From the NCBI GenBank assembly GCA_031265955.1, contig JAISBY010000010.1:186001-250000 (forward strand): a DNA stretch of 64,000 nt, read 5' to 3'. The translations under genes were made by a program, and so were the position numbers. The stretch is from Mycoplasmataceae bacterium (GTDB taxonomy: Bacteria > Bacillota_I > Bacilli_A > Mycoplasmatales > Mycoplasmoidaceae). Below the pieces are notes generated by a model. That model did no database searches, was not told the origin of the DNA, and worked only from the letters and a program-made list of their open reading frames with translations. Shown piece by piece: positions 35,738 through 58,037 of this stretch. Numbering within the stretch: position 1 is the first letter of the stretch; every line of letters starts with the position of its first letter.

Positions 35738-36797
35738 ATGAGAGATAACACACACACACACACACACACACACATTTGGTTTCAACAATAATCGTAATTT
35801 TCTATCTATTGAATTATTAAGATTTATTTTGGCAATATTTGTGGTTTTGAGCCATATAGTACTTTCTAAAAATACATTTTCATGAGCAATTCAAACCGGA
35901 ACAGCTGAGGTAGCTGTTCCAGTTTTTGCAATTATCACCGGCTATTTTTTAGCTAATTCACAAAAGCGTCGTTTTTGACCAATTTTCAATACAATTATCG
36001 TTTACATGTTAGTTATTATTTTGCTGACATTAATTTCCGGGATTATTAGTCCAAAAAATTTTGATTGGAAATCATTAATATATATTAATAATTTTCCTTG
36101 AGGAATTTCAGTGGTTTGATATTTCTTAGGAATGTTAATTGTAATGCTAGTTGCACCATGATTAAATCAATTAATAAAAACTATTAATAAATATTATTGA
36201 ATTGTGATATTTATTTTTTGATTTTTTTTATTGAATGCTTATCCCAGAGATGCAACTACTAGTTTTTTCTTTTTAGATCAATTCAAAAATGCAATAGAAT
36301 TGGCGTTTTATTATTGTGTCGGCGCCTGATTGAAGACTTATTTTGTTTACAACAAAAAGAAGCCAATTATTTCATTTTCATTATTGATATATGCAATTTG
36401 TTTTGCTTTACTAGTTTGTATTAACAGAATTAATGCACAGTGAGTAAGTGATTTACACATATTGTTTGGTTGAACTCAGGAATCACTTTGTACGATAGTT
36501 CAATCAATTGCTGTTTTTATTATTTTTATAAATTTAAATCTAATTATTAGAAAATGAAAATGATTGCACTATCTCATCATGTATTTAGGAATGATGTCAA
36601 TTGCTATTATTTTTCTACATCCAACAAGGTTAATAGTATCAGTAATCCTTGGAGCTATAAACAACCCTGGATCATTGTATCTTTTATATTGAATTTTAAT
36701 TTCCATTGTCTTCAGTATTGTATTAACTATTCCAGCAAAATTTTGCATAGATAAATTGAATGGGATGGTTTACAAAATCCATGTTGGGGAAAGATAA
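35738..36797 (+). pseudogene. Acyltransferase 3 family membrane protein, out of frame at (CA)13 (phase-OFF)
   Basis: A 341-codon open frame from 35775 to the TAA at 36795 encodes a membrane acyltransferase. FLSIELLRFILAIFVVLSHIV carries the family's Arg and His, and PVFAIITGYFLA and about nine further helices follow. TATAAT at 35722-35727 lies 10 nt before an ATG at 35738, which opens MRDNTHTHTH through (CA)13 at 35749-35774. The ATG frame is offset by one from the long frame and stops at 35789. One more CA unit (14) puts the ATG in frame. Likely O-acylation of a surface glycan, reversibly switched; the present copy is OFF. Confidence 0.85.
35749..35774 (+). repeat. (CA)13 dinucleotide tract, phase-variation switch
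   Basis: Thirteen CA units begin four codons after the ATG of the acyltransferase gene. Loss of two or gain of one unit restores the frame. Confidence 0.95.
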
Positions 36798-50774: not shown

Positions 50775-51629
50775 TTATTTTGCTTTAAACACAAAAGTGT
50801 TTTTATTAACACAAGATAACATTATTAAACCAAATCTGAATGTGAGTCATTGAATGATTTGAGTAAATTTCGGCATACCCAAGATGATTTTTCCTAAACC
50901 AGTATTAACGCCCCCCCCCGTAAAGTCTGTTGGATTATTAAAAACATGGTAAGTGATAATTGTGAAATCACAAGTTAACCACAAACTAATGCCCAAAAGC
51001 AGAACTCATTTACCTTTGCTTAATGTTTTGGAAGTACAAACACCTCTCCAACCAAAAAAACACAAAGCAAAAGCATACAAAAAAAATCCTACATTCTGCA
51101 AGGTACTAATGTGACTACTTCCTGAATAAAAACTAATATAAATTTCAAATATTATGAATATAAAAAAAACGAAAAGAAAACCGATTCCATAAAATAAATC
51201 TGATTTATTGAAACCTTTGGTTAATAAAATAAAATGAACCGCCTCACAAATTAATCCTAAAGCAACGATAGTTGAAAAATAAAAATCACATTTTGGCGAG
51301 GTCCAGTCATATAGGACTTCGGATATAAAACAAAAAATAATGAACAATGTTGTCAGATAGCTATACTTTTGAGTCTGCACCAATTGTGAATACAAGATCA
51401 TTAGCGTAAATAATAAATATGTTAGGACATCAGGAATCAAGTCGTTATATATTCTTGCAGTAGATTTATCAGTTGAAACATTAGGTCACGAAATATTAAA
51501 AAAACTTTCTAGCATTCTTAAAATAAAGATTAGCATAACTAAACATAAACAAGAAATTAAATAACTATTGTGAATCCATCTTTTATTTAATCGGTTGGTA
51601 TTTTCTTTTAACAAAATATCAAATTTCAT
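50775..51629 (-). CDS. Multi-helix membrane protein with a G9 tract in its coding sequence
   Basis: A 284-residue protein with about seven hydrophobic helices, Phe- and Ile-rich; five TGA tryptophans hide both ends. No family recognised. A G9 tract (50911-50919, C on the plus strand) encodes Thr-Gly-Gly-Gly-Val near residue 237. With nine G the frame is open to TAA at 50775. Eight or ten G would replace the last 45 residues. TATAAT lies 11 nt before the ATG at 51629, a near-leaderless message. Confidence 0.7.
50911..50919 (-). repeat. G9 homopolymer in a membrane protein gene
   Basis: Nine C on the plus strand, the longest C run in the window. In frame at present. Confidence 0.9.
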
Positions 51630-53444: not shown

Positions 53445-53921
53445 TTAAGAAGCTGCAACTGTTCAAAAAGCATCAACTTTTATTTTAGTCCAACTAAAAT
53501 TAGACAAGTTATCAGCCATGTTTATTTCATTGTTAGATGAAGCTCATGCCACGATTGTTTGTTTACCTTCTACTGGAGGAATGCTATCAATAAACATTAA
53601 AGTAGCAACATCGCCTTTAGAACTAGAATTACACATTAAATATAATTTTTGTGCAGTACTAAACAAATAATCATCGGAATGAATTCCGTTAGGCTTTTTA
53701 TCATCTTCTGTAGTAATAATCGTTCTATAATCATGAGATTCAAATTTTGCAAAAGATATAAATCCAAAATGGTCATCGGATTCTATTGATATTAATTCTC
53801 CAAAATCTATAGTTATTGTCTCTATTTTGCTACAGCTGGTTAAATTAGTAGCAAGTACGATACTAGATGTTCCTAGTACACCGACAGTACCGATTGTTTT
53901 GATTAGACTTATTCTTTTCAT
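53445..53921 (-). CDS. Lipoprotein with phase-variable leader (G7)
   Basis: A 158-residue lipoprotein. The signal peptide MKRISLIKTIGTVGVLGTSS...ATNLTSC gives Cys31 as lipid site. The mature part is beta-rich with no repeats and no family I recognise. TGA tryptophans extend it 32 residues beyond the standard-code end. AAGGGGA lies before the ATG at 53921. The leader upstream has an 11-bp terminator and a G7-containing mini-ORF. Signal peptides at 56335 and 57336 are similar, so the three form a family by export signal. Confidence 0.8.
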
Positions 53922-53945
53922 TTTTATCCCCTTAAATAACATAGC

Positions 53946-54058
53946 AAAAACCAGACTCTTACGAATGTAAAAGTCTGGTTTTTAGAGAAGAGATTAAATT
54001 AGCACTTACAGTACTATACCACTTAACCCCCCCTATTTAATTTCATAGAAATATTATA
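53946..54058 (-). promoter_or_regulatory. Phase-variable attenuator: leader ORF with G7 and terminator
   Basis: On the minus strand TATAAT (54058-54053) is followed 6 nt later by ATG at 54046: ATG AAA TTA AAT AGG GGG GGT TAA. With seven G translation stops at 54023. With six G the frame reads VKWYSTVSANLISSLKTRLLHS to a TAA at 53961-53959, inside the loop of the terminator AAAAACCAGAC/GTCTGGTTTTT (53946-53983). A ribosome there would open the hairpin. The lipoprotein ATG follows at 53921. Present state predicted OFF. Confidence 0.7.
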
Positions 54059-54466: not shown

Positions 54467-56335
54467 TTAAATAATGATTTGATCAATGATTTGTATTAAT
54501 CATATTTTAGCATCTTCTGAACAATACGAAGATTGCGCATATGTCATCAATTGGGTTTTAATAGCGGTATTAAACAATGTCTTGCTTGCTCCGTCTTTTC
54601 CATCGGCATTTATAACATACATAGAATATTCCTCTTGCGAATCTTTTAATGTTGATAAAGTTAATGAAACATCTGCTGTGGCAGGTGTATCTTTTGTAAC
54701 AGATGTTCCGTTGTACGAATATGTACAATCACTATCTGGATATTTTGAGAAAATACTTGAAGAATCTGCTTTGTTACTAAAGAAAAAAAGTGAATTTGTA
54801 GTTACTACACCAGCGGCGGTAGCTATTGGAACTGTGCTACATAATTTGGAAGAAAACAAAGTGTGTATGCCAGAAAAATTTTGCGTGGAACTTGCAACGG
54901 TAGAATTAAATTTACAAAAAATAACTTTAGCATTTTCGCTATTAATTGTAAAAATGCCTGCAACATTTAATGCTGAATTATTTTCGGTATAGTTAAAGTC
55001 TAAACCATAAGCTTTATCATAATCCGAGTTATTATCTGAATGAATGGTGAAATTTCCGTTAATTCCAAAATCGCCTCCTAATCCTTGATAAAATCTGACG
55101 CCTGCAGCATAGTTCAAAGTGGAATTAACATCAAATATGCCATTAATAGTAGTACTAGATTGAACATCTGTGCTATAAACAAGACAACCTACAGCATTTC
55201 AAACAGCGTTTACTAGAAAGGTACCATTGATTAGTAAATTTGATTCTAAATTACTATTAAAGTAAATTGCACAAGCCTCAGGTTCCGTTGGTAAACCACC
55301 AGGGTTAGCGGTATTTGATTTAACTTTAGCAAATCCGTCTATTTCTATATATGCACCATTATATATACCCTTATTAAACCGATAGCCATAGCCATAAAAT
55401 CCAGCGTTAACATCGAAAGTTCCTTTTGTAGTAATTCTTGATGATTCCAAAACTTCTTCTTGGAAATAAACACCGATCCCGATTGTAAAAGAATTAATTT
55501 CGAATGTTCCATTGATGTTAACAATACTATTGACATCGTTATAAAAGAAAACACCAATTATCGTATTGTCTTGACTTATTGATTGTGAACTAGTATTTAA
55601 AACAAAATTACCGTTAATGGTTTGTTTTGACTTTTGTATAGTAGTGGGAAAATCAACACCAATAGCTTTCATAACTCCGCTGATTAGAAATGAACCATTG
55701 ACTATGGTATTTCCTCTGCATACTTCATTGTAATAAACACCATATCCATTTTGAGCATCAATGTTAAATGTACCATTGATTTCCTGAATAGAGTTAACAT
55801 CGGTTCCGTCTATGAAAATACCATAAGCGTCGTCGTTTGTATATAGTTCTGCATGAACAGTAGCATCAATACTCATTGTTTTTGAATATCTCGCCGCTAC
55901 GCTTGATGCTGGTTTTTTGGCAGAACCAACAATTACGCCTCAAACATCGCCAGTCACTTTGCTTTCTGCTGAACCTAATGAAATTTTTGCATTATTGACT
56001 GCACGTAATTTCATTTCTTGATCAAAATTAAGCAAAATTCCAAAATTAATTGTTTCAGAAATTTCAAATGTTTTCGCATTCTTATTATCAGCTGCATATG
56101 CTTGTAAATCCAATAACTTAGTTTGCGTAACAAGAGTACTATCGCTATATCTAGTATAAATAGAACTACCTTCTGTAATTAAATATTTTGAATCAATCTT
56201 GCTATCAATTACTGCTACTACATCATCATTTGGATTATCATTACTACAACTAGTAGCACTAATGATTGTTCCTACACTCGCCACTCCAAGTACGCCGACG
56301 GTGCTAATAATTTTTGATGCCTTAATTTTTTCCAT
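54467..56335 (-). CDS. Large repeat lipoprotein, beta-helix-like
   Basis: A 622-residue lipoprotein, intact only with five or more TGA tryptophans. The signal peptide ends IISATSC (Cys30). The mature chain holds roughly ten repeats of 40-46 residues with the core I-N-G-x-F-x-(I/V)-N...(I/Y)-G-(V/Y)-x-F (e.g. INGTFNIDAQNGYGVYY, INGTFEINSFTIGIGVYF). This suits a right-handed parallel beta-helix, as in surface adhesins. It is preceded by a leader with (AC)14 and a terminator. Confidence 0.83.
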
Positions 56336-56379: not shown

Positions 56380-56506
<127 letters not shown>

Positions 56507-57193: not shown

Positions 57194-57306
57194 TATAATC
57201 TTCTCATGCAATCAAATAGGGGGGGGGATTAAGTGTAACGCTGTAGGCGCTCATTTTATTCTCTTTCTAGAAACAAGATCATTACATTTGTAGGGTCTTG
57301 TTTTTT
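57194..57306 (+). promoter_or_regulatory. Phase-variable attenuator: leader ORF with G9 and terminator
   Basis: TATAAT (57194-57199), 6 nt, ATG at 57206: ATG CAA TCA AAT AGG GGG GGG GAT TAA. With nine G it stops at 57232. With eight G it reads IKCNAVGAHFILFLETRSLHL to TAG 57291-57293, in the loop of terminator AAACAAGA/TCTTGTTT (57271-57303, then TTT). Promoter spacing, NRGG start, G tract, peptide and stop-in-loop all match the leader at 54058-53946. The lipoprotein ATG follows at 57336. Present state predicted OFF. Confidence 0.72.
57219..57227 (+). repeat. G9 homopolymer in the leader ORF
   Basis: Nine G, starting four codons after the leader ATG; the matching tract in the other leader is G7 (54027-54033). 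Confidence 0.92.
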
Positions 57307-57335
57307 GCTATTTACATTAATTCAAAGGAAATAAA

Positions 57336-58037
57336 ATGAAAAAATTAAAATTAATAGGTGTTACCAGCGCCATCGTAATTCTAGGGGTTACAGGCATAGG
57401 GATTTCAGCAACTTTAACTAGTTGTAGCGAAAAGCCTAATCTTACAATTAATACTTATGCAGATTTTGAAAAATATTTTGCGAGTGCAAATCATCACGAT
57501 GAATTCAACGACCCTGTGACATTCACTAGAGGTGATAGTCAAAGTGATCAATTAATTGAATATTTTATTACTGAAAAAAGACTTACACCTAACAATATCT
57601 TATATTCTCAGTTGTACAAATCTGTAGAATTTCTTGACAGTTATCAACATTCTCCTATGAACTTGAAAATTGAAATGAACGGCAATCGAATTTCAATAAA
57701 AACAACTAGTAATTTTGAAATTAGGGCAATCAATCAAGATGTAGATTTTCAATATATAAAAAGTTACAAGGGTTTCACTAGCGAATACGAACTTTCAACA
57801 AACGGTTATTATTTTTCTCAAAAAGGTAAGCAGGAAGTAGACGGTGAAGTAATGAATATAAATGGCAGTTATACTTTGCCTTTAAGCGATGCAAAATTAG
57901 CGATATATAACACTAGTGACAACATGTTTTTCTTAGACATTTATAACAAGAATGATGATACTAATTGTGGCTATTTACCAAATTTATCTTTTGGTCCAAC
58001 TGGATGATACAAAGATGTTGTTATTACTCCCTCTTAA
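57336..58037 (+). CDS. Lipoprotein with phase-variable leader (G9)
   Basis: A 233-residue lipoprotein. Signal MKKLKLIGVTSAIVILGVTG...ATLTSC makes Cys31 the lipid site; the segment ATLTSCSE resembles ATNLTSCSK of the lipoprotein at 53921. The mature part is polar and beta-rich with no repeats I can define and no family I recognise. One TGA tryptophan near the end extends it by 10 residues. AAAGGAAA precedes the ATG, 30 nt after the leader terminator. Confidence 0.8.

Follow-up and report, generated by a model that had tools for sequence, protein, structure and literature searches.

The window analysed here is a 64,000-nt stretch of the genome of a Mycoplasmataceae bacterium, read with genetic code 4 (its long ORFs hold 154 in-frame TGA vs 38 TGG codons). 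Near one end lies a lipoprotein gene, preceded by a leader made up of a predicted -10 box, a small ORF running into a G tract, and two hairpins, the second of which is a predicted intrinsic terminator (Table 1). Six bases separate TATAAT from the ATG of the small ORF; the ATG is followed by CAA TCA AAT, then by an A and nine Gs (G9), and then by ATTAAG, and the ORF as assembled reads ATG CAA TCA AAT AGG GGG GGG GAT TAA. With one G fewer the ORF extends to 28 codons and a TAG, which starts one base past the 4-nt terminator loop, in the 3′ arm of the hairpin. An earlier, sequence-only reading of the locus had described TATAAT, 6 nt, ATG, G9 and an early stop, and this held exactly (three codons and an A lie between ATG and tract), as did its placing of the terminator: the hairpin leads into a T run and ends 30 nt upstream of the lipoprotein ATG. 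Its statement that the long ORF, which it had counted as 29 codons, ends within the loop was off by the one base just mentioned. All three frames of the leader ORF end upstream of the lipoprotein ATG and the lipoprotein ORF is intact, so the locus is not a case of in-gene frameshift phase variation. The 112-nt leader folds with a z score of -4.8 (0 of 200 shuffles were equally stable), and a comparison of the leader region with Rfam gave tRNAs and sub-threshold matches only. As assembled, the leader is predicted to be in an OFF frame, an inference from its sequence without expression data.

Table 1. Leaders of the window, their parts, and the lipoprotein genes behind them
Feature	Position	Strand	Remarks
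TATAAT, predicted -10 box	57194-57199	+	no conserved -35
Leader ORF ATG	57206-57208	+	predicted transcript start on or next to ATG (leaderless mRNA)
Leader ORF, present predicted OFF frame	57206-57232	+	8 codons; stop TAA 57230-57232
G9 tract	57219-57227	+	predicted slippage site; doubles as 5′ arm of hairpin 1
Hairpin 1	57219-57268	+	G tract pairs with pyrimidine tract (about 57258-57268); inner stem covaries
Intrinsic terminator (predicted)	about 57269-57306	+	hairpin 57269-57305; loop 57286-57289; T run 57301-57306
TAG closing leader ORF in predicted ON frame (one G fewer)	57291-57293	+	just past terminator loop
Lipoprotein gene (putative controlled gene)	57336-58037	+	233 aa; lipobox ...LTSC; code 4; no Pfam family
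Second G-type leader	53945-54058	-	TATAAT 54058-54053; ATG 54046-54044; G7 54033-54027; terminator about 53984-53945; predicted OFF at present
Lipoprotein gene behind second G-type leader	53445-53921	-	
(AC)28 leader, like layout	56385-56506	-	TATAAT 56506-56501; ATG 56490-56488; tract 56469-56442; terminator about 56415-56385
Lipoprotein gene behind (AC)n leader	54467-56335	-	622 aa

The sequence-only reading missed three things: the second G-type copy, the (AC)28 leader, and the spacing that places the predicted transcript start on the ATG. No frame of the (AC)28 leader passes its terminator, and two of its frames stop 1-5 nt short of it. None of the three lipoproteins encoded behind these leaders matched Pfam above the cut-off.

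The layout is not peculiar to this window. The genome contains about 30 G tracts of at least 9, some in genes and seven (including that of the leader at 57194) in one type of leader; the minus-strand leader of the window, with its G7, makes an eighth. A covariance model of these G-type leaders, built solely from the tract and the hairpins, found about 10 copies in the same genome and 58 across four genomes of the genus. A search of other genomes of the genus had been proposed by the earlier reading; when run, it recovered both G-type copies and related GA leaders, with additional matches to the G-type model in 6 of 35 congeners and, in several congeners, a (GA)n tract in place of the G tract. 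A second model, for the (GA)n leaders, brought their total to 53 in seven genomes of the genus and had no match among the family's remaining 59 genomes (95 were searched, with matches in the seven same-genus genomes only). (AC)n leaders make up a third class, with 11 loci in the genome under study, one of them in the window. This genome thus holds at least 10 G, 5 GA and 11 AC leaders, or at least 26 genes with a leader. One match in this genome (R1, C3:486041) and a few in congeners lacked a tract and were excluded from the counts. When 320 genomes of the order were scanned for TATAAT-ATG-G7, only six single sites came up beyond the known leaders, none clearly of leader layout: five belong to other genera, two reach into tRNA genes, and the sixth (congener G045) looks in-gene. 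The family of copies, together with the covariation described below, rules out a chance occurrence of the layout at 57194. The genes downstream of the leaders mostly encode lipoproteins (...LTSC) or single-anchor membrane proteins with a GGGIGIGYAIW-like segment, and G and GA leaders precede the same type of gene. At one locus (L239; G000:C11:7715, minus strand), a GA leader stands before a dehydrogenase-like gene and has GTG rather than ATG near the tract; it could be an exception to the surface-protein rule or a chance match.

Evidence for a role of translation comes from the reading frames. For each leader, the three frames that can follow the tract were read as far as the terminator. One frame, and only one, gets as far as the terminator loop in 53 of 58 G-type leaders, 46 of 53 GA-type and 9 of 11 AC-type, or 108/122 overall; among the G-type exceptions, two frames reach it in three leaders and none does in two. 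Shuffles that preserve base pairs and composition would give the one-frame pattern in about half of the G-type set. When copies more than 75% alike were removed, the pattern was found in 11/13 G-type and 11/12 GA-type leaders, and these thinned sets, with the 9/11 AC leaders, were set against the null: the shuffle means were 6.3 (G), 4.6 (GA) and 4.6 (AC), and 15, 0 and 15 of 2000 shuffles, respectively, equalled or exceeded the observed number. The leaders are paralogues, so these nulls overstate independence, and the non-redundant counts are small. Ahead of the tract, 56 of 58 G-type leaders retain the ATG (of the two copies without it, L161 has an interrupted tract, G5AGGG, and L104 a short one, G7), and no stop precedes the tract in the ATG frame of any of the 56, vs 13 and 43 in the other two frames.

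The other (OFF) frames of G-type leaders stop 11 nt or more upstream of the terminator in 114 of 115 cases, far enough away that a ribosome halted at such a stop should leave the terminator undisturbed. ON stops in G-type leaders mostly fall 4-9 nt past the start of the loop or beyond the hairpin; in about half of these leaders the hairpin does not end the ON ORF, which continues through it. Among relatives, 26 of G type and 27 of GA type have a stop, TAG or TAA, in the loop or 3′ arm. As a separate observation, in GA and AC leaders (for example L106, L118 and L292) a second frame often stops 1-5 nt before the terminator or in its 5′ arm. Such frames, ending at the base of the hairpin, might be partly ON and give an intermediate level of expression: this is no more than a possibility, raised by analogy because a leader of Streptococcus gallolyticus that ended 4 bp before its terminator was ON (Danne et al., 2014, PMC3894217).

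Both hairpins are supported by covariation. Over 45 copies, 94% of the cells of the alignment pair and 28 of 40 pairs have changed on both sides, against 12.6 double-changed pairs in shuffles and 6-10 in slid controls; in the terminator helix alone, relatives show two-sided changes at 15 of 17 pairs. Having been fitted to the model, the alignment is biased towards structure. Covariation at this level shows that hairpin 1 and the terminator hairpin are real structures; termination itself was not assayed. The G tract forms the 5′ arm of hairpin 1, and its partner is a conserved pyrimidine tract immediately upstream of the terminator. No competing antiterminator appeared in consensus folds, which show hairpin 1 next to the terminator and compatible with it. 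The two are not mutually exclusive, which sets hairpin 1 apart from a classical antiterminator, and an attenuator of the trp type was rejected for want of an antiterminator hairpin that would exclude the terminator in these folds.

The spacing between the predicted -10 box and the ORF is regular: of the 54 G-type leaders bearing a TATAAT, 52 have it 5-7 nt upstream of the ATG. Given the usual distance from a -10 box to the start site, this spacing predicts that transcription begins on or next to the ATG and that the leader mRNA is leaderless; the start site remains an inference. Leaderless genes seem normal here: among 44 ordinary long ORFs of the window, 5 have TATAAT 6-8 nt before an ATG and no Shine-Dalgarno-like sequence. 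In GA and AC leaders the spacing is mostly slightly longer (7-17 nt where TATAAT is present). A column profile shows conservation beginning at TATAAT, with unrelated flanks upstream and no common -35. In one genome (G042; L159, L160, L164, L166 and L169-L175), 9 of 18 leaders also have a C tract (5-12) no more than 40 nt upstream of TATAAT, 4-20 nt from the -10 box and at 4-5 nt in five. These C tracts could conceivably be a second, promoter-level switch acting on the same gene.

The tracts themselves vary. G tracts are 7-11 long in nearly all G-type relatives, and their lengths differ in 51 of 56 pairs of near-identical paralogue leaders. In the assemblies, 16-17 G-type leaders are in the predicted ON state and 39-40 are OFF, close to the one third expected under random phase. 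Such a share would be expected if the tracts slip freely and one frame in three is open, but tract lengths were taken from metagenome assemblies and variation within a population is inferred, not directly seen. Slippage by RNA polymerase or ribosome on the tract might also blur the two states. Repeats in other positions were noted as well. Elsewhere in the genome, G9-G10 tracts lie in or beside the codons for the signal peptide in genes of predicted lipoproteins or exported proteins (L002, L009, L011 and L025), as in classical in-gene switching. In the window, an ORF at 35738-36797 (plus strand) has (AC)27 soon after its ATG (ATG AGA GAT A(AC)n), with TATAAT 10 nt before the ATG; the tract leads into the frame of an acyltransferase-like membrane protein, currently out of frame, and this is an ordinary in-gene phase-variable gene. 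Close to the 3′ end of the reading frame for a 284-aa membrane protein (50775-51629, minus strand) there is a G9 tract within that frame (50911-50919), and the assembled frame is open.

These observations are best accounted for by a phase-variable transcription attenuator, in which tract length controls antitermination by the ribosome. In this model, RNA polymerase would start at or next to the ATG and produce a leaderless mRNA, and a ribosome translating the short ORF would enter the G tract. Its reading frame beyond the tract would be set by strand slippage there during replication. With an early stop, as in two of the three frames, the terminator hairpin would form and the transcript would end ahead of the lipoprotein gene (OFF). 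In the remaining frame, the ribosome would get as far as the terminator hairpin and stop just past its loop or run through it, and the blocked hairpin would allow the lipoprotein gene to be transcribed (ON). Copies of the cassette with G, GA or AC tracts before many surface-protein genes would each switch alone, with about one third ON. The sequence-only reading had proposed that tract length sets ON/OFF expression through attenuation and not through the gene's own frame. This likely holds: comparison of 122 leaders supports it because there is one open frame, the ATG is conserved, OFF stops come early, paralogues differ in tract length, and the hairpins covary. Switching and readthrough are inferred, and there are no expression data.

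Several points weigh on the attenuator model, among them the leaders with two reaching frames or none, the window's AC leader, the ON ORFs that pass through the hairpin, and the GA and AC frames that stop at its base. The model requires coupling of ribosome and polymerase, which is unshown in this genus: expressomes have been described in cells of Mycoplasma pneumoniae, whereas Bacillus subtilis is largely uncoupled (reviewed in PMC7858274). As a proxy for coupling, terminator positions in the window are too few (only 8 were found, 6 of them 20-33 nt after a stop codon). Against the model, hairpin 1 covaries although a simple version in which the ribosome blocks the terminator does not need it. 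It is possible, purely as an inference, that hairpin 1 pauses polymerase and lets the first ribosome catch up.

Other readings of the tract can be considered. The most serious is that it acts through RNA structure and not translation, its length altering the pairing of hairpin 1 and thus pausing or terminator folding. The G tract does pair with the conserved pyrimidine tract, and the covariation of hairpin 1 is real. However, the adjacent hairpins can coexist, so that no antiterminator competes with the terminator; a run can gain or lose bases and still pair through G-U and G-C; and the idea leaves unexplained the ATG, its stop-free frame and the single open frame of three in three repeat classes. 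This reading is unlikely. Less likely still is that the layout was inherited through gene duplication, with an ORF that has no role and a tract that is a hypermutable relic of a shared upstream region. The members are paralogous, and common descent could account for part of the frame pattern, but conservation starts at TATAAT with unrelated flanks upstream, the same frame logic is seen in non-redundant G copies and in GA and AC leaders of different sequence, and the frame readout persists across strongly divergent terminator stems.

An effect of the tract on promoter activity, through distance or the initially transcribed sequence, is also very improbable. Control of promoters by repeat length is established in mycoplasmas, and the C tracts upstream of the -10 box in 9/18 G042 copies could be counted in its favour. 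The G tract, however, lies 19 nt downstream of TATAAT, beyond the ATG and within the transcribed region, so the locus does not fit a mycoplasma promoter-spacer switch, and promoter effects, being independent of multiples of three, would leave the frame pattern unexplained. Finally, a small RNA or protein could bind the G tract in the 5′ leader and regulate post-transcriptionally. In Helicobacter pylori, the small RNA RepG acts on a G repeat of tlpB, and a transcribed G tract of variable length is a point in common. This can be all but dismissed: GA and AC leaders have the same layout with a different tract sequence, and neither the terminator nor the frame pattern would be explained. The ribosome-mediated attenuator remains the preferred reading.

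The mechanism is not categorically new. The sequence-only reading had known of no such arrangement, and this needs correcting: the same principle has been shown experimentally for the pil1 and pil3 loci of S. gallolyticus (PMC3894217). GCAGA repeats in the leader-peptide gene of pil1 shift its frame; leader peptides of the longer kind finish within or beyond a stem-loop terminator, and the pilus operon is then transcribed more strongly; pil3 is similar. The evidence included variants, deletion of the terminator, mutation of the start codon and insertion of stops. As in pil1 and pil3, a simple repeat lies within a short leader ORF upstream of the gene and its number sets the frame; the long form of the ORF reaches or passes an intrinsic terminator (predicted here) and short forms stop before it; a surface structure is controlled (putatively here); and about one third is ON (of cells there, of assembled G-type leaders here). 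There are also differences. The streptococcal system uses a GCAGA pentamer at two loci, the pil1 leader has a ribosome binding site, and no hairpin formed by the repeat was described; here the tracts are G, GA or AC, the ORF is predicted to be leaderless, the tract is an arm of a conserved hairpin, TGA is read as Trp, and there are dozens of loci per genome in a mollicute.

Other comparisons are more distant. In the pyrBI attenuator of Escherichia coli, a ribosome translating into the terminator prevents its formation, and UTP is sensed through polymerase pausing; the blocking of the hairpin would be alike here, but the signal would be a heritable repeat length instead of UTP. A leader peptide and a terminator upstream of the gene recall trp attenuation, unlike which no competing antiterminator was found. 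Surface lipoproteins of mycoplasmas are known to phase-vary through promoter-spacer repeats, in-gene repeats and promoter inversion (for promoter inversion, see the review PMC11868660). The leaders resemble these as heritable switches of surface lipoproteins in mollicutes; unlike the classical switches, the repeat stands in a separate, transcribed leader ORF and would act through a terminator, and the same genome has in-gene G tracts too. No mycoplasma or other mollicute example of a leader-ORF attenuator switch was found in the literature searched (in a 2025 review of phase variation, the strings 'leader', 'terminat' and 'gallolyticus' are absent), and to our knowledge none has been described. 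What is new, on the evidence of sequence without expression data, is the occurrence in a mollicute, the G, GA and AC tracts, an ORF predicted to be leaderless, a tract that serves as one arm of a hairpin, and the sheer number of putative switches, which runs to dozens.

A bolder reading, which seems to us slightly less likely than not, is that a portable cassette (-10 box, leaderless ORF, hypermutable tract of any of the three repeat units, pausing hairpin and attenuator) is the general means of surface diversification in this genus. Dozens of genes per genome would then switch independently at the level of transcription, and GA and AC frames would give three levels (early stop, stop at the hairpin base, and passage through the hairpin). 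If the attenuator reading is true, annotators would have to allow for switches made of repeats that stand ahead of intact genes, a kind missed by frame-based scans for phase variation. The leaders would also be evidence for ribosome-polymerase coupling in these cells and for leaderless initiation able to drive attenuation, and the expressed surface repertoire would be predictable from tract lengths in sequence reads. A mechanism shown for two pilus loci of one streptococcus would then be a genome-wide strategy, built on three repeats, in a genus of mollicutes.
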